A stretch of DNA of 64,000 bases from Falsiroseomonas frigidaquae (lineage in GTDB: Bacteria > Pseudomonadota > Alphaproteobacteria > Acetobacterales > Acetobacteraceae): positions 248,001-312,000 of the forward strand of contig NZ_JAAVTX010000005.1 of NCBI RefSeq assembly GCF_012163145.1, read 5' to 3'. Position numbers and translations under genes: made by a program. This document shows, piece after piece, positions 45,747 to 56,325 of this stretch; within the stretch, counting starts at the first letter, position 1, and every line of letters begins with the position of its first letter. The notes under the pieces are model-generated. The model saw nothing but the letters and a program-made list of their open reading frames with translations. It ran no database searches and was not told the origin of the DNA.

Positions 45747-47087
45747 ATGGATATCACGCCGCAACAGACGCTGATCAGCGCAGCCAATGCCGGCTACATG
45801 TCCGGCTTCGGCAATGGCTTCGAGACGGAGGCCCTGCCCGGCGCCCTGCCGGTCGGCCGCAATTCGCCACAGCGCTGCGCCTATGGGCTCTATGCCGAGC
45901 AGCTCTCCGGCTCCCCCTTCACCGCGCCGCGGGCCAGCAATGCGCGGTCCTGGCTGTATCGCATCCGCCCGACCGTCGCGCATATCGGCCGCTTCGCGCC
46001 GCGCGATGCCGGGCTGTGGCGCAGCGCGCCCTGCGCGGAGGAGACCGGCCTGCCGATCCAGCCGCTGCGCTGGGACCCGCTGCCGATCCCGGATACGGGC
46101 GAGACCTTCCTGACCGGCATGCGCACCATCACCACCTGCGGCGATGTCGCTGGCCAGACCGGCATGGCGGCCAGCATCGCGCTGGTGACTCGCAGCATGG
46201 TGGACGAGACCTTCTGGAACTCCGACGCGGAGATGCTGGTGATCCCCCAGCAGGGCCGGCTGCGTTTTCGGACCGAATTCGGCGTGATCGAGGTGGCGCC
46301 CGGTGAGGTCGCTGTCCTGCCGCGCGGCGTGAAGTTCCGGGTGGAGCTGATCCACGAGCAGCCGGCGCGGGCCTATGTCTGCGAGAACTACGGCGGCGCC
46401 TTCACCCTGCCGGAGCGCGGCCCGATCGGCGCCAATTGCCTGGCGAACCAGCGCGATTTCCTGTCGCCTGTCGCGGCTTACGAGGATGTGGAGCGGCCGC
46501 AGCTTGTCGTGGTGAAATGGGGCGGGCAGCTCTGGCAGGCGGAGATCGGGCATTCGCCGCTGGATGTGGTGGCCTGGCACGGCAACTACGCGCCGCACAA
46601 ATACGACCTGTCCCGCTTCTCGCCGGTCGGGCCGCTGCTGTTCGACCACGCGGACCCGTCGATCTTCACGGTGATGACGGCGCCGTCGGAGACGCCCGGC
46701 ACGGCGAATATCGACTTCGTGCTGTTCCCGGAGCGCTGGATGGTGGCGGAAAACACCTTCCGGCCGCCCTGGTACCACATGAACCTGATGAGCGAGTTCA
46801 TGGGCCTGATCCTCGGCCAGTACGACGCCAAGCCGCAGGGTTTCGTTCCTGGCGGCTTCAGCCTGCACAATTGCATGCTGCCGCATGGCCCGGATGCGGA
46901 GGCCTTCGAGAAGGCGAGCACGGTGGAACTCGCGCCGCACAAGCTGGCCAATACCATGGCCTTCATGCTGGAGACGCGGCTGCCGCAGCGCGTCACAGCC
47001 TATGCCGCCGGCGTGGCGCAGCGCCAGCCGGACTACGAGGCCTGCTGGTCCGGGCTGGTCAAGAAATTCGATCCGACGAGGCGGTGA
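45747..47087 (+). CDS. hmgA: Homogentisate 1,2-dioxygenase
   Basis: 446 aa, full length. It opens homogentisate to maleylacetoacetate using Fe2+ and O2. Landmarks: [19 protein letters not shown] at the start, a cupin-like iron site with [16 protein letters not shown] and [10 protein letters not shown] supplying histidine and glutamate ligands. ATG 45747 with GAGGGGAGG upstream. It is followed after 5 nt by the fumarylacetoacetase gene. maleylacetoacetate isomerase is not in the window. Confidence 0.96.
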
Positions 47088-47092
47088 CCTGG

Positions 47093-48349
47093 ATGCTCGA
47101 TGCAACTCATGACGCGGCCCGGCGCAGCCGCGTCGCCTCCGCCAATGGCCATGCGGATTTCCCGATCCAGAACCTGCCGTTGGGCGTGTTCGCGCCGCCC
47201 GGCGGGGCGAAGCGGGCGGGTGTGGCGATCGGCGACAGCATCCTGGAGCTGGCCAGCGCGCCGCTGACGGGTGTGGCGGCGGAGGCCGTGGCATCGATGG
47301 CGGATGGCACGCTGAACGGCTTCTTCGCGCTCGGCGCCGCGCCGCGGAAGGCGTTGCGTGCGCAACTCTCGGAGCTGCTTTCGGAAGGCAGTACGGCCGA
47401 GCTGGTCCTGCATGACTCGGGAAAATGCACGCTGCATCTGCCGGCGCGCATCGGGGACTACACGGATTTCTATGCCGGCATCCAGCACGCCACCAATGTC
47501 GGCGCGCTGTTCCGCCCGGACCAGCCGCTGATGCCGAACTACAAGCATGTGCCGATCGGCTATCACGGCCGCGCCAGCTCCATCGTGCCCTCCGGCACCG
47601 CGCTGCGGCGGCCGAACGGGCAGCGCAAGCCGGCCGCCGAGACGCAGCCGAGCTTCGGGCCGAGCCGTAACCTGGATTACGAGCTGGAGCTCGGCATCTG
47701 GATCGGGCCGGGCAATTCGCTGGGCGAGCCCATCCCGATCGCCCAGGCCGCGGGGCATATTGCGGGCTACTGCCTGCTGAACGACTGGTCGGCGCGCGAC
47801 ATCCAGGGGTGGGAATACCAACCGCTCGGCCCCTTCCTGGCGAAGAATTTCGGCTCGACCATCAGCCCCTGGGTGGTGACGCCGGAAGCGCTGGCGCCTT
47901 TTCGGGTGGCGCAGCCGGCACGACCGGAGGGCGATCCGAAGCCGATGGCGTATCTGTGGGACGAGACGGACCAAGCGGAGGGCGCGCTGGCGCTGGAGCT
48001 GGAAGTCTGGCTGACCGTGCCGGGCGCGGCGCCCCATCGCCTGTCCACCAGCGATGCGCGCGGCCTGTACTGGACCCCGGCGCAGATGGTGGCGCATCAC
48101 AGCTGCGGCGGCTGCAACCTGCAGCCGGGCGATCTGTTCGGCAGCGGCACCATCTCCACCGAGGCCGGCTATGGCTCGCTGCTGGAAATCACCCAGGGCG
48201 GACGCAAGCCGCTGACCTTGCCATCCGGCGCCACGCGCCGTTTCCTGGAAGACGGCGACAGCATCACGCTGCGCGCCCGCGCCCGCCGCGACGGCTTTGC
48301 CGGCATCGGCTTCGGCGATTGCACGGGCACCATTCTCGCGGCGCCCTGA
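47093..48349 (+). CDS. fahA: Fumarylacetoacetase
   Basis: 418 aa. It hydrolyses fumarylacetoacetate to fumarate and acetoacetate, the last step of tyrosine degradation. The SH3-like N-terminal domain (FPIQNLPLGVFA) precedes the FAH core with DYTDFYAGIQHATNVG, PIGYHGRASSIVPSG, LDYELELGIWIG, LNDWSARDIQGWEY and KNFGSTISPWVV. Metal-binding acidic residues are in place. It is co-transcribed with hmgA. Confidence 0.96.
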   Translation: MLDATHDAARRSRVASANGHADFPIQNLPLGVFAPPGGAKRAGVAIGDSILELASAPLTGVAAEAVASMADGTLNGFFALGAAPRKALRAQLSELLSEGSTAELVLHDSGKCTLHLPARIGDYTDFYAGIQHATNVGALFRPDQPLMPNYKHVPIGYHGRASSIVPSGTALRRPNGQRKPAAETQPSFGPSRNLDYELELGIWIGPGNSLGEPIPIAQAAGHIAGYCLLNDWSARDIQGWEYQPLGPFLAKNFGSTISPWVVTPEALAPFRVAQPARPEGDPKPMAYLWDETDQAEGALALELEVWLTVPGAAPHRLSTSDARGLYWTPAQMVAHHSCGGCNLQPGDLFGSGTISTEAGYGSLLEITQGGRKPLTLPSGATRRFLEDGDSITLRARARRDGFAGIGFGDCTGTILAAP

Positions 48350-48361
48350 GGGAGAACGACC

Positions 48362-49333
48362 ATGTCCGACCGGCCAAAGAAGGTCGAGTTCCTCGAGGAA
48401 GGCCCGCGCGAGGGCTTCCAGATCGAAAAGACCATCTTCCCTCTGGCGGAGCGTGTGAAGCTGGTGGAGGCGCTGGCGGAAACCGGGCTGCACCACATCC
48501 AGGTCGCCAGCTTCGTCAGCCCGAAGCATGTGCCGCAGATGGCCGACAGCGCCGAATTTTTCGCCGCCATCCGCAAGAAGCCGGGCGTGCACTATGCCGG
48601 GCTGTGGCTGAATGAGCAGGGGTTCGAACGCGCCCGCGCCACCGGGCATGTCGACCTCCAGGGCAAGATTTCGCTCTACGCCTCGGACGCCTTCGCGCAG
48701 CGCAACAACCGCTGCTCGGCGGCGGAGATGGCGGAGCGGCAGAAGGGCTGGCTGGACCGCTATGCGGAAGCGGGCGTGAAGCCGGACTACGCCATCATCA
48801 TGGCCGCCTTCGGCTGCAACTATGAGGGCGACATCCCGCCCGAACGCGTCGTCGCCCTGGCGCGCTACGCCCACGACATCTGCGCCGAGCGTGGCGAGAA
48901 ACTCCCGCAGGTCTTCCTCGCGGACACCATGGGCTGGGGCAATCCGGAGCAGACGCGGCGCCTGGTCGGCATGGTGCGGGACGCGCTGCCGGAGGTGCGG
49001 ATCGGCCTGCATCTGCACGACACGCGCGGCCTCGGCACCGCCAATGTGCTGGCGGCGCTGGAGATGGGGGTGGATCTGTTCGACAGCAGCGTCGCAGGCC
49101 TCGGCGGTTGCCCCTTCGCCGCGCATGGCGATGCCGGTGCGGCGGGCAATGTGTGCACGGAGGACCTGGTGTTCCTCTGCCACGAACTCGGCATCGAGAC
49201 CGGCATCGACCTGGAGGCGCTGGTGGAATGCGCCCGCATGGCGGAGCGCCTGATCGGCCGCCGGTTGAACGGCCGCGTCATGCATGCGGGGACATTGGCG
49301 AAGTATCGGGCGAAGCGGGACGTGGCGGCGTGA
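48362..49333 (+). CDS. Hydroxymethylglutaryl-CoA lyase family protein
   Basis: 323 aa, HMGL-like TIM barrel. The N-terminal motif reads EEGPREGFQ rather than the usual D-x-x-x-R-D-x-x-Q; ASFVSPKHVPQMAD, LHLHDTRGLGTANVLAAL and GGCPFAAHGDAGAAGNVCTED hold the catalytic His and Cys regions. It would split a 3-hydroxy-3-methyl acyl-CoA into acetyl-CoA or pyruvate plus a ketone/acid. The stop overlaps the next gene (GTGA). Substrate may differ from HMG-CoA given the altered first motif and the CoA-transferase partner. Confidence 0.88.
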   Translation: MSDRPKKVEFLEEGPREGFQIEKTIFPLAERVKLVEALAETGLHHIQVASFVSPKHVPQMADSAEFFAAIRKKPGVHYAGLWLNEQGFERARATGHVDLQGKISLYASDAFAQRNNRCSAAEMAERQKGWLDRYAEAGVKPDYAIIMAAFGCNYEGDIPPERVVALARYAHDICAERGEKLPQVFLADTMGWGNPEQTRRLVGMVRDALPEVRIGLHLHDTRGLGTANVLAALEMGVDLFDSSVAGLGGCPFAAHGDAGAAGNVCTEDLVFLCHELGIETGIDLEALVECARMAERLIGRRLNGRVMHAGTLAKYRAKRDVAA

Positions 49334-50469
49334 AGCCTCTGGATGGCGTGAAGGTGGTGGAGATCGGCCAGGTCTTCGCGGGCCCCTATGCGGGTGCGAT
49401 CCTGGCGGATCTCGGCGCCGATGTGATCAAGGTGGAGAAGCCGCAGGGCGGCGATGATGCGCGGCAGATGGGCCGCGAATTCCGCCGCGGCGATGCGCTG
49501 GTCTTCCACGAGTTCAACCGCGGCAAACGCAGCGTGGCGCTGGACCTGAAATCCGCCGAGGGCATGGCAGCACTGCATGCGCTGTTGGAGCAGGCCGATA
49601 TCCTGCTGCACAACATGCGGCCCGGCGTGCCGGAAACGCTCGGGCTGGGCGGGGCGGAGACCACGGCGCGGCACACCCGCCTGATCTATTGCGAGATGGG
49701 CGCCTTCGGCCATCAGGGACCGATGAAGGACCACCCCGGCTATGAGCCGCTGCTGCAGGCTTTTTCCGGATTGTCCTCCATCACGGGCGAGCCGGGCGGC
49801 AAGCCGGTACGCATGGGCGCCAGCGTGGTGGACCAGGGCACCGGCATGTGGACGGTGATCGGCGCCCTGGCGGCGCTGCGGCAGCGGGAGGTGACGGGGC
49901 GCGGCTGCGTCATCAACACCTCCCTCTTCGAGACCGCCTTCGCCTGGGCCAACCAGAAGGTTTCGGCCTTCGTGAACCAGAGGGAGCAGCCGGTGCGGCA
50001 TGCGTCGGGGCACCCCGGCTTCGTGCCCTACGAGGCCTTCGACGCGTCCGATTCACCGCTGCTGGTCTGCTGCGGCAATGACCGGCTGTTCGCGAAGTTT
50101 GCCCGCGTGCTGGGCCATTCGGAATGGCCCGCGGACCCGCGCTTCCTCACCAACCGCGACCGCATCGCGCACAAGGATGCGCTGCTGCCGATGATCCGGG
50201 AGATCATGCTGGGGCGCCGCCGCGTGGAATGGCTCGGCCTACTGGTGGAGGCCGGCGTGCCCTGCGCGCCGATCAACACGATCGAGGAAATGCTGGCCGA
50301 GCCTCAGGCCGCGGCGATGCAGATGCTGGCGACGCCGCCGGGCGAGGATTTCGCCGTGGTCGCCACGCCGATCAGCTTCGACGGTGTCCGCCCGCTGCCG
50401 CCGCGCGGCGCGCCGCGGCTGGACGAGCATGCGGGTGCTGGGTTCAGCCCAGGACCTTCGGGGCGCTGA
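49330..50469 (+). CDS. Class III (CaiB/BaiF-type) CoA-transferase
   Basis: 379 aa. VKVVEIGQVFAGPYAGAILADLGADVIKVEKPQGGDDAR is the family N-terminus; the catalytic aspartate is D168 in VVDQGTGM. It moves CoA between acids, probably activating the substrate of the lyase it overlaps by 4 nt. The start is GTG 49330. Its last 26 bases overlap the convergent DUF6285 gene, an unusual tail-to-tail overlap. Confidence 0.92.
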   Translation: MKPLDGVKVVEIGQVFAGPYAGAILADLGADVIKVEKPQGGDDARQMGREFRRGDALVFHEFNRGKRSVALDLKSAEGMAALHALLEQADILLHNMRPGVPETLGLGGAETTARHTRLIYCEMGAFGHQGPMKDHPGYEPLLQAFSGLSSITGEPGGKPVRMGASVVDQGTGMWTVIGALAALRQREVTGRGCVINTSLFETAFAWANQKVSAFVNQREQPVRHASGHPGFVPYEAFDASDSPLLVCCGNDRLFAKFARVLGHSEWPADPRFLTNRDRIAHKDALLPMIREIMLGRRRVEWLGLLVEAGVPCAPINTIEEMLAEPQAAAMQMLATPPGEDFAVVATPISFDGVRPLPPRGAPRLDEHAGAGFSPGPSGR

Positions 50470-50749
50470 CGGCAGCGCGCGCGCGGGCGTAATCGCGCAG
50501 GAAAGCCGCCACCTGCGCGTGGCTTTCCGTGCCGGGATCGTGCCGCCCGGCGCGGATTTCGGCGGCCAGCGCGGCCAGATCCGCCTCCGACATCGGCGGC
50601 GCCGCGGCCTGGCGTAGCGCGAGGGCGATGGCGGCGGCGACCATGCGGGCGGCGATCGCCTTTTCCGGCCGCAAGGCGGGCAGCAACTCGTTCAGCACCA
50701 CCTCCCGCGCCGTGGCGAGCAGATCGGCGGCGTCGGGCTTTTCCTGCAT
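50444..50749 (-). CDS. DUF6285 protein, LvaB-like
   Basis: 101 aa, all-helical (DLLATAREVVLNELLPALRPEKAIAARMVAAAIALALRQ). It is coupled to the upstream kinase gene by a TGATG overlap. Small proteins of this type accompany APH-like kinases; LvaB of the P. putida levulinate operon is a similarly sized partner required by the kinase LvaA. That assignment rests on size, order and family, not on a catalytic motif. No signal or membrane segment. Confidence 0.78.
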   Translation of the reverse strand: MQEKPDAADLLATAREVVLNELLPALRPEKAIAARMVAAAIALALRQAAAPPMSEADLAALAAEIRAGRHDPGTESHAQVAAFLRDYARARAAVSAPKVLG

Positions 50750-51729
50750 CACAGCGCCTCCGCCATCGCCAGCACGTCCCATTCCAACTCCGGCACCATA
50801 TGGCCCGTCAGCGCCAGTTCCAGGCTGCGTTCCTGGCCGGAGAGGTGCCGCGCCGCCTGGTCGGCCGCGATGACGGCCCAGCGGATGGTCGCCAGCAATT
50901 CCCACCAGGGCAGCCGCGCTGCATCCACCGGCCTGCCATAGCCGGCCAGGAAGGCGTCCCGCGGGCCGATGCCGCCGGCCTCCTGCGCCACCTGGCCGAA
51001 GCGCCAGCATTTCGCGCAGAACCAGCCGAGATCGGCATGCGGATCGCCCCAGCCGGCGAATTCCCAGTCCAGCACGGCGGCCACGCCCTGCGCGTCCAGC
51101 ATGATGTTGCCGGTGCGGAAGTCGTTGTGGCAGAGCACGGGCGGCAGCGGCGCGGGCGCCTTGCGTTCCAGCGCGCGCAGCCCCCATTCCAGCACCGGCC
51201 GCGGCGTGCCGGCCGCATCCAGCCGCGCGCGCAGCCCCCCGATGGCGGCCAGCGCCGCATCCGCCTGCGGATCGCCGAGGAAATCCAGATCGGCGCGCGG
51301 CGGGCGGATGGCGTGGATGCGCGCCAATTCGCGCCCGAGCGCCGCGACGCAGGCCTCCCGCCCGCCGCCCAGCGTTGCGTCCTTCACCACGCGATGCGGC
51401 GCGGCGATGCCCTCCACCCGCGCCATGACGAAGAAGGGGCGGCCGATGACGGCGGGATCCTCGCAGAGGAACAGCGGGGCCGGCACCGTCACGCCTGCCT
51501 CACGCGCCGCGCGCAGCAGCGCGAATTCCTGCGGCCGGGTGTGGCTGACGGCGAGCACCGCCGGCGCATCCGTGCGCAGCACCCAGCGCAGCGCTTGGCC
51601 CGCAACCTCCACATCCAGCGCCCAGTTCTGCTGGATGGCGCCGCCCGAAAGCCGCGTCAGCGCGGTGATGCGCAGCGCGTCGTCGCCTGACGCCCGTGCC
51701 AGCCAGCCGCGGAGCGCCGCCTCATCCAT
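50749..51729 (-). CDS. APH-type phosphotransferase, LvaA/ACAD11-like
   Basis: 326 aa. Kinase motifs: catalytic loop H201-N-D203-F-R-T-G-N208, and metal-binding D221-W-E. The GGAIQQNW nucleotide loop is near 30. WVLRTDAP is the ATP-binding lysine/arginine position. This is not an antibiotic-resistance gene by context: it overlaps an acyl-CoA dehydrogenase gene by 8 nt and DUF6285 by 1 nt. Known relatives phosphorylate 4-hydroxyacyl-CoA so that the dehydrogenase partner can eliminate phosphate. Confidence 0.88.
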   Translation of the reverse strand: MDEAALRGWLARASGDDALRITALTRLSGGAIQQNWALDVEVAGQALRWVLRTDAPAVLAVSHTRPQEFALLRAAREAGVTVPAPLFLCEDPAVIGRPFFVMARVEGIAAPHRVVKDATLGGGREACVAALGRELARIHAIRPPRADLDFLGDPQADAALAAIGGLRARLDAAGTPRPVLEWGLRALERKAPAPLPPVLCHNDFRTGNIMLDAQGVAAVLDWEFAGWGDPHADLGWFCAKCWRFGQVAQEAGGIGPRDAFLAGYGRPVDAARLPWWELLATIRWAVIAADQAARHLSGQERSLELALTGHMVPELEWDVLAMAEAL

Positions 51730-52924
51730 GCGCGCCCCATTGGAAAAACTCGCGGCCCTCGCGGCGCAGGAAATTGGCCAGCACCATGCGGTGCACCTCG
51801 CTCGCGCCATCCACCAGGCGCGCCTGGCGGGCGTAGCGGTACATCCACTCCACCGGCGTGTCCTTGGAATAGCCGCGCGCCCCGAGCAGCTGCAGCGCGG
51901 TATCCACGGATTTGTGCAGCGCGTCGGCGACGACGATCTTCGCCATCGAGACCTCCTTCCGCGCGAAGCCGCCCTGATCCAGCACCCAGGCCGCCTTCAT
52001 GGTCAGCAGCCGCCCGATCTCCAGCTCCATCGCCGCCTGGCCGACCAGGCCCTGCACGGATTCACGGTCGATCAGCTTCTGGCCGAAGCTCTCGCGAACC
52101 GCGATGCGCTCCATCGCAATCTCCAGCGCGCGGCGGCCCATGCCGAGCCAGCGCATGCAATGCGTCAGCCGCGCGGTGCCGAGGCGGATCTGCGTCAGCT
52201 TCAGCCCGTCGCCAACGCCCATCAGCACGTTCTCGTCGGGAATCTCCAGCCCGTCGAAGGCGATCTCGCAATGCCCGCCATGTTCCTCAGGCCCCATGAT
52301 CGGGATGCGGCGGATGATGCGCCAACCGGGCTGGTCGGCGTGGAACAGGAAGCAGGTCAGCCCCTTGCGGTCATCGTCGCTGGTGCGGGCGATCAGCAGG
52401 AAATGCTTCGATTCCCCGGCACCCGTGATGTAGTGCTTGCGGCCCGTGACGCGCCAGCCGCCCTGCACCTTCTCGGCACGGGTATAGGTCAGCGAGGGGT
52501 CGCTGCCGCAGCCATCGGGCTCGGTCATCGCGAAGCTGGACTGCACCTCGCCATCGACGATCGGCTGCAGCCAGCGCGCCTTCTGCGCCTCGGTCGCCAC
52601 CTTCTCCAGCACGATCATATTGCCGTCGTCGGGGGCCGCGCTGTTGAAGACGACGGGGCCGAAGATGGAGCGGTTCATCTCCTCATAACAGGCCGCCATG
52701 CCGACCACGGGCAGGCCGCCGCCGCCACGGCTTTTCGGCATCTGCAGGGCCCAAAGGCCCTCCGCCTTCGCCGCCGCCCGCATCCGCTTCAACACATCAG
52801 GGTGGATGTTCTCGTGCTCGTCGAAATTGGCGCGGTCGGATTCCAGCGGGATCAGGCGGGTATCCACGAAATCCCGCACCCGCTTCCGGATGGCGTCGAT
52901 CTCGGGCGGCAGGGCGAAGTCCAT
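51722..52924 (-). CDS. Acyl-CoA dehydrogenase, LvaC/ACAD11-like
   Basis: 400 aa. The FAD-binding strand reads FAMTEPDGCGSDPS near 135, the substrate loop GAGESKHFLLIAR near 170, and the C-terminal helix GARGYSKDTPVEWMYRYARQARLVDGASEVHRMV near 355, with the usual glutamate position D or E in this group. It would convert a 4-phospho-acyl-CoA to the 2-enoyl or 3-hydroxyacyl-CoA in the lva scheme. 12 nt after the SDR gene. Confidence 0.92.
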   Translation of the reverse strand: MDFALPPEIDAIRKRVRDFVDTRLIPLESDRANFDEHENIHPDVLKRMRAAAKAEGLWALQMPKSRGGGGLPVVGMAACYEEMNRSIFGPVVFNSAAPDDGNMIVLEKVATEAQKARWLQPIVDGEVQSSFAMTEPDGCGSDPSLTYTRAEKVQGGWRVTGRKHYITGAGESKHFLLIARTSDDDRKGLTCFLFHADQPGWRIIRRIPIMGPEEHGGHCEIAFDGLEIPDENVLMGVGDGLKLTQIRLGTARLTHCMRWLGMGRRALEIAMERIAVRESFGQKLIDRESVQGLVGQAAMELEIGRLLTMKAAWVLDQGGFARKEVSMAKIVVADALHKSVDTALQLLGARGYSKDTPVEWMYRYARQARLVDGASEVHRMVLANFLRREGREFFQWGAHG

Positions 52925-52936
52925 GCGGGGCGTGTC

Positions 52937-53689
52937 CTACAGGCTGTTGATGGAATGGCCGCCATCGACGGTCAGCACGCTGCCCGTCATATGCGCGCCG
53001 GCCTCCGAGGCAAGCAGCAGCAGCGGGCCGGTCAGGTCCTGCACCTGGCCCAGCCGGCGCTGCGGAATGCGCTTCACCAGCGCCTGGCCGGCGTCGCTGG
53101 CGAAGAAATCGGCGTTGATCTCCGTGGCGATATAGCCCGGCGCCAGGGCGTTCACCCGGATGCGGTGCCGCGCGAGTTCCACCGCCATCTGCCGCGTCAG
53201 CTGGATCAGCCCGGCCTTGGCGGCGGAATAGCCGGCCACGCCCGGGATCACCCGCGCCCCCAGGATGGAAGCGACGTTGACGATCGCACCCCCCTGCCCC
53301 GCCGCCACCATCGCCCGCGCCACGGCCTGCGCCACGCGGAAGGCACCGCGGAGGTCCACGGCCATCACCTGGTCCCAATCCTCCTCGGTATGGTCCAGGA
53401 AGGGGCGCGTCGCGGCGATACCGGCATTGTTCACCAGGATGGTGGGCGAGCCGAAGCCGGATTGGGCCGCCGCCAGCGCCGCGGCGATGCTGGCCTCCTG
53501 CGTCACATCCAGCGCCACGGTCATGGCGTTCGCTCCGAGTTCCCCGGCCAGCGCCGCCACCGCCTCCGGCCGCCGCGCCGCCAGCACCACGCGCGCACCG
53601 GCGCCGTGCAGCACCCTCGCGAAATGCCGGCCGAGCGCGCCCGACGCGCCGGTCACCAGCGCCACCTGCCCCGCCAGGGAGAATACCAT
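52937..53689 (-). CDS. Short-chain dehydrogenase/reductase, LvaD-like position
   Basis: 250 aa, classical SDR. TGASGALGRHFARVL (Rossmann), NNAG near 88, and an intact YSAAK catalytic motif near 155. It probably oxidises a hydroxy or reduces a keto group on the acyl-CoA handled by the next three genes. It begins 30 nt after the response-regulator stop on the same strand. Confidence 0.9.
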   Translation of the reverse strand: MVFSLAGQVALVTGASGALGRHFARVLHGAGARVVLAARRPEAVAALAGELGANAMTVALDVTQEASIAAALAAAQSGFGSPTILVNNAGIAATRPFLDHTEEDWDQVMAVDLRGAFRVAQAVARAMVAAGQGGAIVNVASILGARVIPGVAGYSAAKAGLIQLTRQMAVELARHRIRVNALAPGYIATEINADFFASDAGQALVKRIPQRRLGQVQDLTGPLLLLASEAGAHMTGSVLTVDGGHSINSL

Positions 53690-53719
53690 GTTCCGTTCCG
53701 TCCGCCGCCCGGCGGCAGC

Positions 53720-54091
53720 TTATGGTCCCGGAAGCAGCTTGCGAAGCGCCGCCAGCACCGCATCCATGTCCAGCGGCTTGGCGAACAGCGCGACCGGGCC
53801 CTCTCCCTGCCTGGCGAAGGCCCCGGCGCCGCCGGCCGGGGCGTAGCCGGTCATCACCACCACCGGCAGGGCCGGCCGGGAGGATCGCAGCGCGCGGATC
53901 AGCCCGGCACCGTCCAGCCTCGGCATGCGCAGGTCGGTCAGCAGCAGGTCGGGCGGCTGCTGCGCCGCGGCTTCCAGCGCGGCCTGACCGTCTGGGGCCA
54001 GCACCACCTCATAGCCCTCGCGCAGCAATTCATCCTCGATCGCCATCGCGGCGAGACCTTCATCCTCGGCAACCAGGATGCGCCAGGCCAT
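53720..54091 (-). CDS. Single-domain response regulator
   Basis: 123 aa, receiver domain only. Acidic pocket E9-D10, phosphoacceptor D53 in LLLTDLRMP, the switch T in VVVMTGYAP and K in LFAKPLD. With no output domain it signals through protein contact or a phosphorelay (CheY/DivK-like). It is coupled to the kinase by TGATG. The cognate kinase is the ETR1-like protein upstream. Confidence 0.93.
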   Translation of the reverse strand: MAWRILVAEDEGLAAMAIEDELLREGYEVVLAPDGQAALEAAAQQPPDLLLTDLRMPRLDGAGLIRALRSSRPALPVVVMTGYAPAGGAGAFARQGEGPVALFAKPLDMDAVLAALRKLLPGP

Positions 54092-55653
54092 CAGTTCCTT
54101 GCCTCCTCCGTGGTCAGCAGGCACGACAATGGCGCCAGGGCGAGCCGCATGGTGAACACGGCGCCACCCTCGGGCGCGTTGTGGCAATAGATCCGGCCGC
54201 CCATGCCACGCGCCACGGCGGCTGCCAGGGGCAGGCCCAGGCCGCTGCCATGGCCGGGGTCGCGGGTGGTGAAGAACGGGTCGAAGATGGCATCGCGCAG
54301 CGCCTCCGGCACGCCGGTGCCGGCATCCTGTACCTCCACCACCGCCTCCCCGGCTTCCTCCCGCAGCGTCACGCTGATCTGGCCGGAACTGGCGGGGTCG
54401 CTGGCGCGCCTGTCCTGAACCGCATCCCGGGCGTTGGCCAGCAATTGCAGCAGCGCCTGTTCTAGGCGGGCGGGCGCCCCGCGGACCGGCAGCGGATCCG
54501 GGTGGTTGCGCAGGGCAATCTCGATACCCTCGGGCCCATACTGGCCGGCTGCAGTGCGGATGGCGGCCTCGGCGGTGCGGGTCGCATCGAAGACATGGGT
54601 GGCGCCGGCCTCCTCACCCGGCAGGGCGCGGATGCGCGCCACCAGGTCGCCGGCCCGGCGAAGCTGGCCCTCGACCACGCCGAAGGCGGTGTTCAGCCGC
54701 GCCACCTGCGTCTCGGGCTGCATCCCATCCGCGGCGGCGCGGGCATTGCGGAGCCAGAGTATCGCGGCGTTCAGCGGCTGGCTGGTTTCATGCGCCAGGC
54801 CGGCGCACATGGTACCGACCGTCGCCAGCTTGGCGCTCTGCAGCAGATCCGCCTGCAGGCGGCGCGTCATGGTGATGTCCCGAGCCGAGCCGAGGAGGCG
54901 TTCCACCTGCCCGTCCGGCCCCACCATCGGCACCAGCACGGTCTGCCAGACCCGCCAGCCGGCCGGGGTCTCGGCTTCCATCACATACTCTGCCGGCTGG
55001 CGCTCGGCCGCCGCCTGGCGCCAATGCGGCAGGGCGGCGGCCAGCAGGGCGGCTGGCACCACGGTCTCGATCGGCTTGTGTCGCATCGCGTCACCGCTGA
55101 TGCCGAACAGGCGCTCGAAGGCCGGGTTGACGGTTTCGGCCTGGAAGCCGCCATCTGGCAGCACGCGGATGACGAAAAGCGCTTCCGCCAGATGGGCGAT
55201 GAAGGCGGCGCTGCGGGCCTCGCTCGCCAGCGCCCGGGCTTCCGCGGCCCGCCGCTCATCCACCTCGCGCGCCATGGCCTCGGGGCTGGGCAAAGCGAGC
55301 AATCGCGGCAGCAGCGGCCACAACACGATGGCGGTGGTGACGGACACGGCGGCGGTGATCGCCTTGATCAGCCCCTCCGCCTCATAGGCCGGGGTGAACA
55401 TGGTCCAGGCATGCATCAGGTGCGTGGCGCCGCAGGCGATGATGAAGGCGGCGAAAAGCGCGAAGACCCAGGGATACGCCAGGTCGCGCCGGCGCAGCGC
55501 GAACACCATCAGGGCGGCGGGGATCGACAGGTAGGCGAGGCCCGTGGCGACATCCGAAATCAGGTGCAGCCAGATCAGGTCGGGATCGACAAGCGTACAC
55601 AGCCCCGGCGGTAGGAGGAGTGGCGCCGGTAGAAGAAGAGGATCAAGTGCCAT
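54091..55653 (-). CDS. Sensor histidine kinase with ethylene-receptor-like membrane domain
   Basis: 520 aa. Three N-terminal membrane helices (about 27-120) match the ETR1 ethylene/copper domain: D34, Y41, I71, C74 and H78 align with ETR1 D25, Y32, I62, C65 and H69 at identical spacing, in LISDVATGLAYLSIP and FIIACGATHLMHAW. A short coiled region and a PAS domain (about 150-265) lead to the kinase core: H288 in GLAHETSQPL, N box NARDAVQD, DAGTG and GSGLGLPLA. It should bind copper and perhaps ethylene or another small olefin/gas. Coupled to its regulator. Confidence 0.88.
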   Translation of the reverse strand: MALDPLLLPAPLLLPPGLCTLVDPDLIWLHLISDVATGLAYLSIPAALMVFALRRRDLAYPWVFALFAAFIIACGATHLMHAWTMFTPAYEAEGLIKAITAAVSVTTAIVLWPLLPRLLALPSPEAMAREVDERRAAEARALASEARSAAFIAHLAEALFVIRVLPDGGFQAETVNPAFERLFGISGDAMRHKPIETVVPAALLAAALPHWRQAAAERQPAEYVMEAETPAGWRVWQTVLVPMVGPDGQVERLLGSARDITMTRRLQADLLQSAKLATVGTMCAGLAHETSQPLNAAILWLRNARAAADGMQPETQVARLNTAFGVVEGQLRRAGDLVARIRALPGEEAGATHVFDATRTAEAAIRTAAGQYGPEGIEIALRNHPDPLPVRGAPARLEQALLQLLANARDAVQDRRASDPASSGQISVTLREEAGEAVVEVQDAGTGVPEALRDAIFDPFFTTRDPGHGSGLGLPLAAAVARGMGGRIYCHNAPEGGAVFTMRLALAPLSCLLTTEEARN

Positions 55654-55779
55654 TCAGTGGCCGCGCACACGCTATGCAGTTTGACGAGTGTGTATCAGCG
55701 CATGAGGGTAAGCGTCGCCCCGCACGATGTTTCAAATCAATTACTCACGCTTGGTTGAAGGCGTGCAGCTCGGCGAGGG

Positions 55780-56157
55780 TCAGCTGTCCAGCGGCATCAT
55801 GCTGACATGTGCGGCCACCACTCGCCAACCCTCCGCGTGACGCACCCATGTCTGGCTCTGCCGCCCAACCCGACCATTGCGCTCAAAGGTCGTATTGGCC
55901 GTGGCGAAATCCCGTCCATGGGTCGTGATGACGGTCCGCAACAAGCGCCGGTCCAGGCCGACGGATGGGCGGCCGGCGCGGAACGCCATGATCTCGGCAT
56001 AGCCGTGCAGGATCTCGGTCGCGCCATATCGTATCGTTCTGATGTCATTCCAGAACAGCTCGTCGAGCACTGTCACGTCATTGGCGACCAGCGCCTTCTC
56101 ATACCGCATGAAGGCAGCGGTCACCTCGGCCACGATCTCGGGGATGTCGATCTGCAT
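55780..56157 (-). CDS. AtzH-like/HpxZ-type (DUF3225) SnoaL-fold protein
   Basis: 125 aa. [74 protein letters not shown] and [21 protein letters not shown] are typical. The family is linked to oxalurate/biuret catabolism, but no such genes are present, so function is open. Stands alone; divergent from the Usp gene. Confidence 0.85.
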
Positions 56158-56325
56158 CGGGCGTGGTCCTAGCGCGCAGGCTGGCCGGGGGCAGCCACGA
56201 AAACGTGTAGCGGCACAGCCGGTCGCGGAACAGATCGTGCGCGGCGGGATGATGCGGATCAAGGCCCGCTCCGGCGCCCTCGATCATGCTGGCCTCGGTC
56301 ACACCGCATGGGGAAGGACGTAGAC

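Follow-up and report, generated by a model that had tools for sequence, protein, structure and literature searches.

Gene organization of the locus

The locus described here lies in a stretch of 64,000 nucleotides (nt) from Falsiroseomonas frigidaquae (Acetobacteraceae; contig NZ_JAAVTX010000005.1, positions 248,001 to 312,000), which belongs to a genome of 6.08 Mb and is referred to as the window. Six genes on its minus strand comprise two halves: an AzoEtr1-type histidine kinase with a receiver-only response regulator and, downstream of this pair, four genes of the LvaD, LvaC, LvaA and LvaB types that encode a putative 4-hydroxyacyl-CoA module (Table 1). The arrangement is best read as two known modules that were joined, in this genus only, into a likely operon, and no description of a receptor pair placed in front of lva-type genes was found in the open-licence literature searched. 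An earlier note, made from the sequence alone, had outlined the six-gene row, with overlaps or gaps of at most 30 nt, and had named both halves. The open reading frame (ORF) check returned the same coordinates and strand, Pfam is in line with the layout, and the identities are borne out by Pfam, the pocket residues and the LvaC/ACAD11 signature.

The ATG of the receiver overlaps the stop codon of the kinase by a single nucleotide. A gap of 30 nt separates the receiver from the short-chain dehydrogenase/reductase (SDR) gene and one of 12 nt separates the latter from the acyl-CoA dehydrogenase (ACAD) gene, while the ACAD and APH genes overlap by 8 nt and the APH and DUF6285 genes by 1 nt. Judged by this layout, all six genes are probably co-transcribed. 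A scan of 9.5 kb gave no promoter-like or terminator-like match in the 30-nt gap, which is uninformative rather than negative, as it returned 0 promoter-like sites (0.8 in shuffles) and three terminator-like sites (2.5 in shuffles) overall. Upstream of the kinase, nothing convincing was found for a sigma-54 or a sigma-70 consensus, with the best candidates presenting 3–5 and 3–6 mismatches, respectively.

Table 1. Features of the six-gene block and its upstream region (window coordinates)
Feature	Position	Strand	Basis
Conserved cis-element TTCAACCAAGCGTGA, TCAA-N5-CGTG core	55745..55759	-	106-92 nt upstream of the kinase start
Kinase, AzoEtr1-type ethylene-receptor histidine kinase, 520 amino acids (aa)	54091..55653	-	Pfam, residue mapping
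Receiver-only response regulator, 123 aa	53720..54091	-	Pfam Response_reg alone; 1-nt overlap with kinase
Receiver-SDR junction, 30 nt	53690..53719	-	No terminator-like or promoter-like match
SDR oxidoreductase, LvaD type	52937..53689	-	Pfam adh_short; upstream of ACAD in 21/24 outgroup loci
ACAD, LvaC/ACAD10/11 class	51722..52924	-	Pfam Acyl-CoA_dh, signature residues, PDB match
APH-fold kinase, LvaA type	50749..51729	-	Pfam APH; PDB matches including the ACAD11 kinase domain
DUF6285 small protein, 101 aa, probable LvaB counterpart	50444..50749	-	Weak Pfam score; adjoins LvaA-type kinase

The receptor kinase and its receiver

Pfam assigns an ETR1_N domain to residues 26-121 of the kinase (124 bits), a PAS domain to residues 162-265 (PAS_4) and an ATPase domain to residues 393-506 (HATPase_c). 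H288, a residue of the phospho-acceptor type, is invariant across 15 aligned kinases. Residue mapping found all eight checked positions intact, namely the pocket residues D34, Y41, I44, P45, I71, C74 and H78 and the output residue K97. These positions are the equivalents of AtETR1 D25, Y32, I35, P36, I62, C65, H69 and K91, the first seven of which are needed for ethylene binding and the last for output. The positions and spacing of the D, C, H and K residues agree with those in PMC11819568. The receiver carries D10, D53, T81 and K105. By these features, the two proteins are classed as an ethylene receptor pair of the known AzoEtr1 kind, and the kinase probably senses ethylene.

The putative 4-hydroxyacyl-CoA module

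Within the enzyme half, SDR family membership is certain by Pfam, and the reduction of levulinyl-CoA, as by LvaD, is a putative function of this protein. The ACAD presents the HCMR motif at residues 255-258 together with R247 and a catalytic-type D372, and an R…HCMR signature with an Asp has been described for LvaC and ACAD10/11 (PMC12440821). D372 follows the histidine by 117 residues, in comparison to 119 in ACAD11 according to the numbers of the same source, and the best PDB match of the protein is ACAD11 (8v3u, E 2e-68). The APH kinase is assigned at the level of the fold (Pfam APH, 142 bits), so that its activity is predicted; among its PDB matches, the ACAD11 kinase domain ranks second, behind another APH-fold chain. 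The DUF6285 score is weak, with 21.3 bits in an over-long ORF, 23 bits in the genome search and 29.9 bits with frame neighbours, at a cut-off of 28.1; the position of this protein beside the LvaA-type kinase makes it a probable LvaB counterpart. Taking the functions of LvaA–E from PMC6692424 and PMC11342911, the SDR-ACAD-APH-DUF6285 set can be read as an LvaD/C/A/B-type 4-hydroxyacyl-CoA module that looks able to break down 4-hydroxy acids. A domain scan of 19 genes of the window, from 44.4 to 62.8 kb, found none that encodes an AMP-binding ligase (LvaE), an acetate symporter (LvaG) or a sigma-54 activator (LvaR). The nearest relative of the ligase found beside outgroup ACAD genes (see below) is encoded on another contig of this genome (56% identical), and such a location of the closest relative applies to all 15 ACAD-bearing genomes of the genus (55–58% identical).

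A conserved element upstream of the kinase

All 15 genus genomes that encode a full kinase have the TCAA-N5-CGTG core upstream of it. The distance to the kinase start, which includes the two bases ahead of the core, is 99–109 nt in 11 genomes and 36–85 nt in the four whose start is uncertain. Its eight bases represent eight of the nine invariant columns of the alignment, a count favoured by the fact that the sequences were cut around the element. A nearly invariant T about 50 nt downstream may mark the -10 region. The stricter pattern TTCAANNNNGCGTGA is unique to this site in the 6.08 Mb genome, so that this pattern defines no regulon, looser forms not having been searched genome-wide. Scans for the core gave no match in G006 and none in front of the kinase at 10 and 38 loci from outside the genus (partly the same genomes). 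Elsewhere, it appears twice in the 16 genus loci scanned (~238 kb) and once in 24 outgroup ACAD loci. As the element stays in G004, a genus member without the ACAD, it belongs to the receptor gene, and it offers a handle on the regulator.

Conservation within Falsiroseomonas

Conservation was followed in a set of 16 genus genomes, 15 of which contain an ETR1_N domain and 15 an LvaC-type ACAD. With the window protein used to project the SDR start, 11 of the 16 (G000, G001, G002, G003, G007, G008, G009, G010, G012, G014 and G015) have 28–100 nt between receiver and SDR. A synteny control covered 10 of the 15 other genomes and left out G004, which has no ACAD, three genomes with short contigs (G005, G006 and G011) and G012, where a contig end is close. 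The receiver-SDR order is kept in nine of the ten and lies within 4 kb in the tenth; this choice of genomes favours the block, and the figure would be 9/11 with G004 counted. The other four gene pairs of the block are kept in 10/10, while the remaining 33 pairs of adjacent genes in the interval from 26 to 64 kb reach 0-8/10, and the flanking gene order is rearranged on both sides of the block. The order and spacing of the six genes are repeated throughout the genus, unlike most of the neighbours, so that the block reflects more than chance. In a tree of ACAD and SDR sequences, in which some nodes are weakly supported and G004 is not included, tight linkage with an intact pocket is found in an eight-genome clade and in G002/G009; genomes with looser linkage or a decayed pocket fall into the second clade.

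Where the halves are further apart, a TctC-type binding protein gene stands between receiver and SDR (G006, G013 and G011). G011 has a PrpF-like gene there as well, and G013 a PrpF-like region. Inserts with a TctC-type protein, two of them with PrpF-like sequence, were recorded at L032:1584-3686, L034:4474-5956 and L062:2503-3501.

Distribution outside the genus

A survey of 52 loci contained kinase and receiver in 51; L115 is a distant match without the kinase. Its genus records, which comprise Falsiroseomonas and Roseomonas species and metagenome-assembled genomes, provide 13 loci, and lva-type genes follow the pair in 11 of these (nine tight, two with an insert), with one locus lacking them and one located at a contig end. 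Ten orthologous pairs from other genomes of the family, partly the same genomes as in the survey, have no catabolic genes nearby. The ACAD was found elsewhere in the genome in 11 of 11 survey genomes searched.

Co-occurrence was assessed among 200 family genomes, 19 of which encode such a kinase when matches are required to reach E <= 1e-60; this cut-off missed G174, which has the pair and the ACAD and whose kinase matches in two frames. Outside the genus, an LvaC-type ACAD is present in 12 of 15 genomes with the kinase vs 45 of 181 without it. Counted by genus, the figures are 6/7 vs 24/94 (Fisher p 0.003), a comparison in which kinship is corrected by the genus step only and genome size is not.

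As an outgroup, 24 ACAD loci of other Acetobacteraceae were compared. All four genes occur in the same order in 12 of them, and the notion that every such locus holds the complete module was rejected. Eight loci (L139, L142, L143, L145, L146, L149, L152 and L155) contain SDR and ACAD with no APH or DUF6285 gene nearby, three have no SDR and one ends at the contig end. An AMP-binding ligase follows in 15/24, and a TctC-type binding protein precedes the SDR in 7/24, which suggests that the TctC gene is possibly an ancestral SDR neighbour. A divergent outgroup gene, c7, had been considered as a LysR regulator; Pfam identifies it as an NMT1/THI5-like binding protein, which leaves no scenario in which a regulator was replaced by the receptor pair.

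None of the 24 outgroup loci carries an AzoEtr1-type pair. One of them, that of G188, has a kinase of a different type, and G188 is the only non-genus genome of the 200 with an ETR1 domain and an ACAD within 10 kb: the ETR1_N kinase stands ~5 kb ahead of the SDR in a TctC-SDR-ACAD-APH-DUF6285 cluster (L045:5522-15356). It was rejected as an instance of the same arrangement, as its kinase shows 33% identity across only a portion of the protein and a receiver match was not found.

Variation of the ethylene pocket

Of the 16 genus kinases, 13 retain the full set of eight residues, as do 8 of 11 kinases from elsewhere, the kinase of G188 being among the latter eight. By alignment and in AtETR1 numbering, the kinase of G003, a genome with tight linkage, lost Y32, I35, P36, I62, C65 and K91, and that of G013 lost Y32, I35, P36 and I62 while keeping C65 and H69; G006 contains a kinase remnant of 214 aa with no Pfam match. 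Receptor orthologs in which pocket residues are lost, the equivalents of C65, H69 or Y32 among them, with the receiver being kept, are located at L036:7364-8947, L034:7386-8921, L062:3939-4580, L057:6277-7860 and L058:7073-8638, and apparently reflect repeated loss of ethylene sensing. In addition, second, divergent ETR1_N proteins are encoded in G001, G015 and G008 (L024:8486-10093, L030:3661-5028 and L019, G008:C88:74813-75088), the first two being 31-33% identical to the window kinase.

Interpretation and alternative explanations

It appears fairly probable that the AzoEtr1-type pair forms one transcription unit with the four-gene module downstream of it, and that the link between the two halves consists in shared expression. 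The pair would have come to adjoin the module upstream, probably in an ancestor of Falsiroseomonas, and a promoter ahead of the kinase gene probably drives a common transcript of the six genes. The kinase would hold Cu(I) at C74/H78 and bind ethylene, and binding would lower autophosphorylation and phosphotransfer to the receiver, which in turn may act through a protein partner rather than on DNA. For the enzymes, the prediction is that SDR, APH-DUF6285 pair and ACAD convert 4-oxo- and 4-hydroxyacyl-CoA, by way of a 4-phospho intermediate, into an enoyl-CoA that enters beta-oxidation, following CoA activation by an enzyme presumably encoded elsewhere. Shared expression would be the simplest connection between these two activities.

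Several observations weigh against a tight coupling of the two halves. Lva-type genes stand beside the pair in 0 of 38 non-genus loci (L077–L114), within flanks that extend clearly under 9 kb downstream in six of them and under 2 kb in L108. The earlier note had looked to recurrence of the six genes in relatives and had regarded an absence of conserved linkage as telling against its proposal; this recurrence holds within the genus, by spacing and synteny, and fails beyond it. Even within the genus, the distance from receiver to SDR is 1058 nt in G006, 2770 nt in G013 and 3376 nt in G011, G004 has the pair and the upstream element with no LvaC-type ACAD, and the halves lie on different contigs in G005, where 4.3 kb before the SDR contain no receiver. 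Receiver and catabolic genes persist in G003, G013 and G006 even though pocket residues are lost, which is evidence against the idea that genomes retaining the catabolic genes cannot do without ethylene input. Pfam detects Response_reg and no output domain in the receiver. Finally, 5 of the 12 co-occurring genomes (G051, G078, G135, G185 and G199) have no APH or DUF6285 gene beside the ACAD; the association is therefore with the ACAD and not with the whole module, which makes plain juxtaposition more likely and control of the pathway by ethylene less likely. The conservation in the genus is real, and these exceptions warn against assuming a functional link.

A possible, though less favoured, explanation is that two independent modules became neighbours once and were co-inherited, with any shared transcript being inconsequential read-through. 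Both modules stand alone elsewhere, as is evident from the pair in 51 of 52 survey loci and from its missing companions or absence at the 38 non-genus and 24 outgroup loci, and the pair of G004 as well as the sensor decay that leaves the catabolic genes in place would be expected from such a history. Against this, the block is better kept than all 33 other neighbouring pairs amid flanks rearranged on both sides, and the co-occurrence with the ACAD extends outside the genus.

Ethylene control of 4-hydroxyacid catabolism is possible, although its probability is low. Here, ethylene sensed by the kinase would raise or lower 4-hydroxyacyl-CoA breakdown, via control of the operon or via the receiver acting on an enzyme. 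The layout and conservation of the block and the ACAD co-occurrence are consistent with this proposal, and ethylene changes carbon metabolism in Azospirillum, where polyhydroxybutyrate accumulates (PMC11819568). The receiver without an output domain, the three relatives with decayed pockets and the co-occurring genomes without APH and DUF6285 genes argue in the opposite direction. In its strongest form, which seems equally doubtful, a copper-dependent receptor would let ethylene set the level of 4-hydroxyacid catabolism through one transcription unit with a dedicated promoter element, the substrates meant being levulinate, gamma-lactones and 4-hydroxy acids from lipid peroxidation. If true, a gas that serves plants as a hormone would be connected to a catabolic operon, and the genus would also contain natural variants that have lost the sensor.

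The proposal of the earlier note that the kinase senses a pathway-related small molecule, for example an olefin or a lactone-derived acid, is not supported and highly improbable: its position in front of the enzyme genes is the one point in its favour, all seven ethylene-binding positions are intact, and the intermediates of the pathway, being CoA thioesters, do not resemble the ligand of an ETR1_N domain. AzoEtr1, which the pair matches in architecture, binds ethylene (PMC11819568), and the surveyed Azospirillum loci have no lva neighbours.

Returning to co-transcription of receptor pair and module, the arrangement ties the pair to a defined set of enzymes, and relatives lacking the pocket (G003, G013, G006) or the ACAD (G004) are available, which makes the targets of bacterial ethylene sensing directly testable.

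Neighbouring genes

Downstream of the block, genes for a homogentisate dioxygenase, a fumarylacetoacetase, an HMG-CoA-lyase-like protein and a class III CoA-transferase lie in a row on the plus strand (45747-50469), convergent with the DUF6285 gene and overlapping it by 26 nt. The CoA-transferase and HMG-CoA-lyase genes were considered for the CoA-activating step and were not counted as parts, as several genomes of the genus do not have them next to the block. Upstream of the kinase and on the same strand, an AtzH-like/SnoaL protein (55780-56262, minus strand) is a neighbour in 6 of 10 relatives compared.

Comparison with known systems

SynEtr1/Slr1213 of Synechocystis likewise combines an ethylene-binding histidine kinase with a response regulator; however, SynEtr1 is also a light sensor and its regulator activates a small RNA, whereas the receiver described here has no output domain (PMC11819568). 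Clusters of the LvaC type in other Acetobacteraceae share the SDR-ACAD-APH-DUF6285 order in half of the outgroup loci and differ in having no AzoEtr1-type pair. The lva operon of Pseudomonas putida likewise comprises an SDR, an LvaC-type ACAD with HCMR and the catalytic-type Asp, an APH kinase and a small partner (PMC6692424, PMC12440821, PMC11342911). In the window, these genes follow the order D-C-A-B with a sensor pair in front, and counterparts of LvaE, LvaG and LvaR are absent from the scanned neighbours; a strict P. putida lva operon, with LvaE, LvaFG and LvaR in the cluster, was thus not found among the 19 genes.

The receptor half resembles the system of Azospirillum brasilense, and the Azospirillum loci of the survey encode relatives 40-43% identical to the window kinase. 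AzoEtr1 is a receptor of 525 aa (520 aa here) composed of an ethylene-binding domain, a PAS domain and a histidine kinase, and binds ethylene directly; AzoRR-etr1 is a receiver-only regulator of 135 aa (123 aa here) that overlaps the kinase stop (PMC11819568). The surveyed Azospirillum loci differ in having neither 4-hydroxyacyl-CoA neighbours nor the TCAA-N5-CGTG core, while the architecture is the same and the D, C, H and K residues at positions 35, 75, 79 and 98 of AzoEtr1 recur with identical spacing at 34, 74, 78 and 97. Both halves of the block are already known, and what appears to be new is their joining in one genus.

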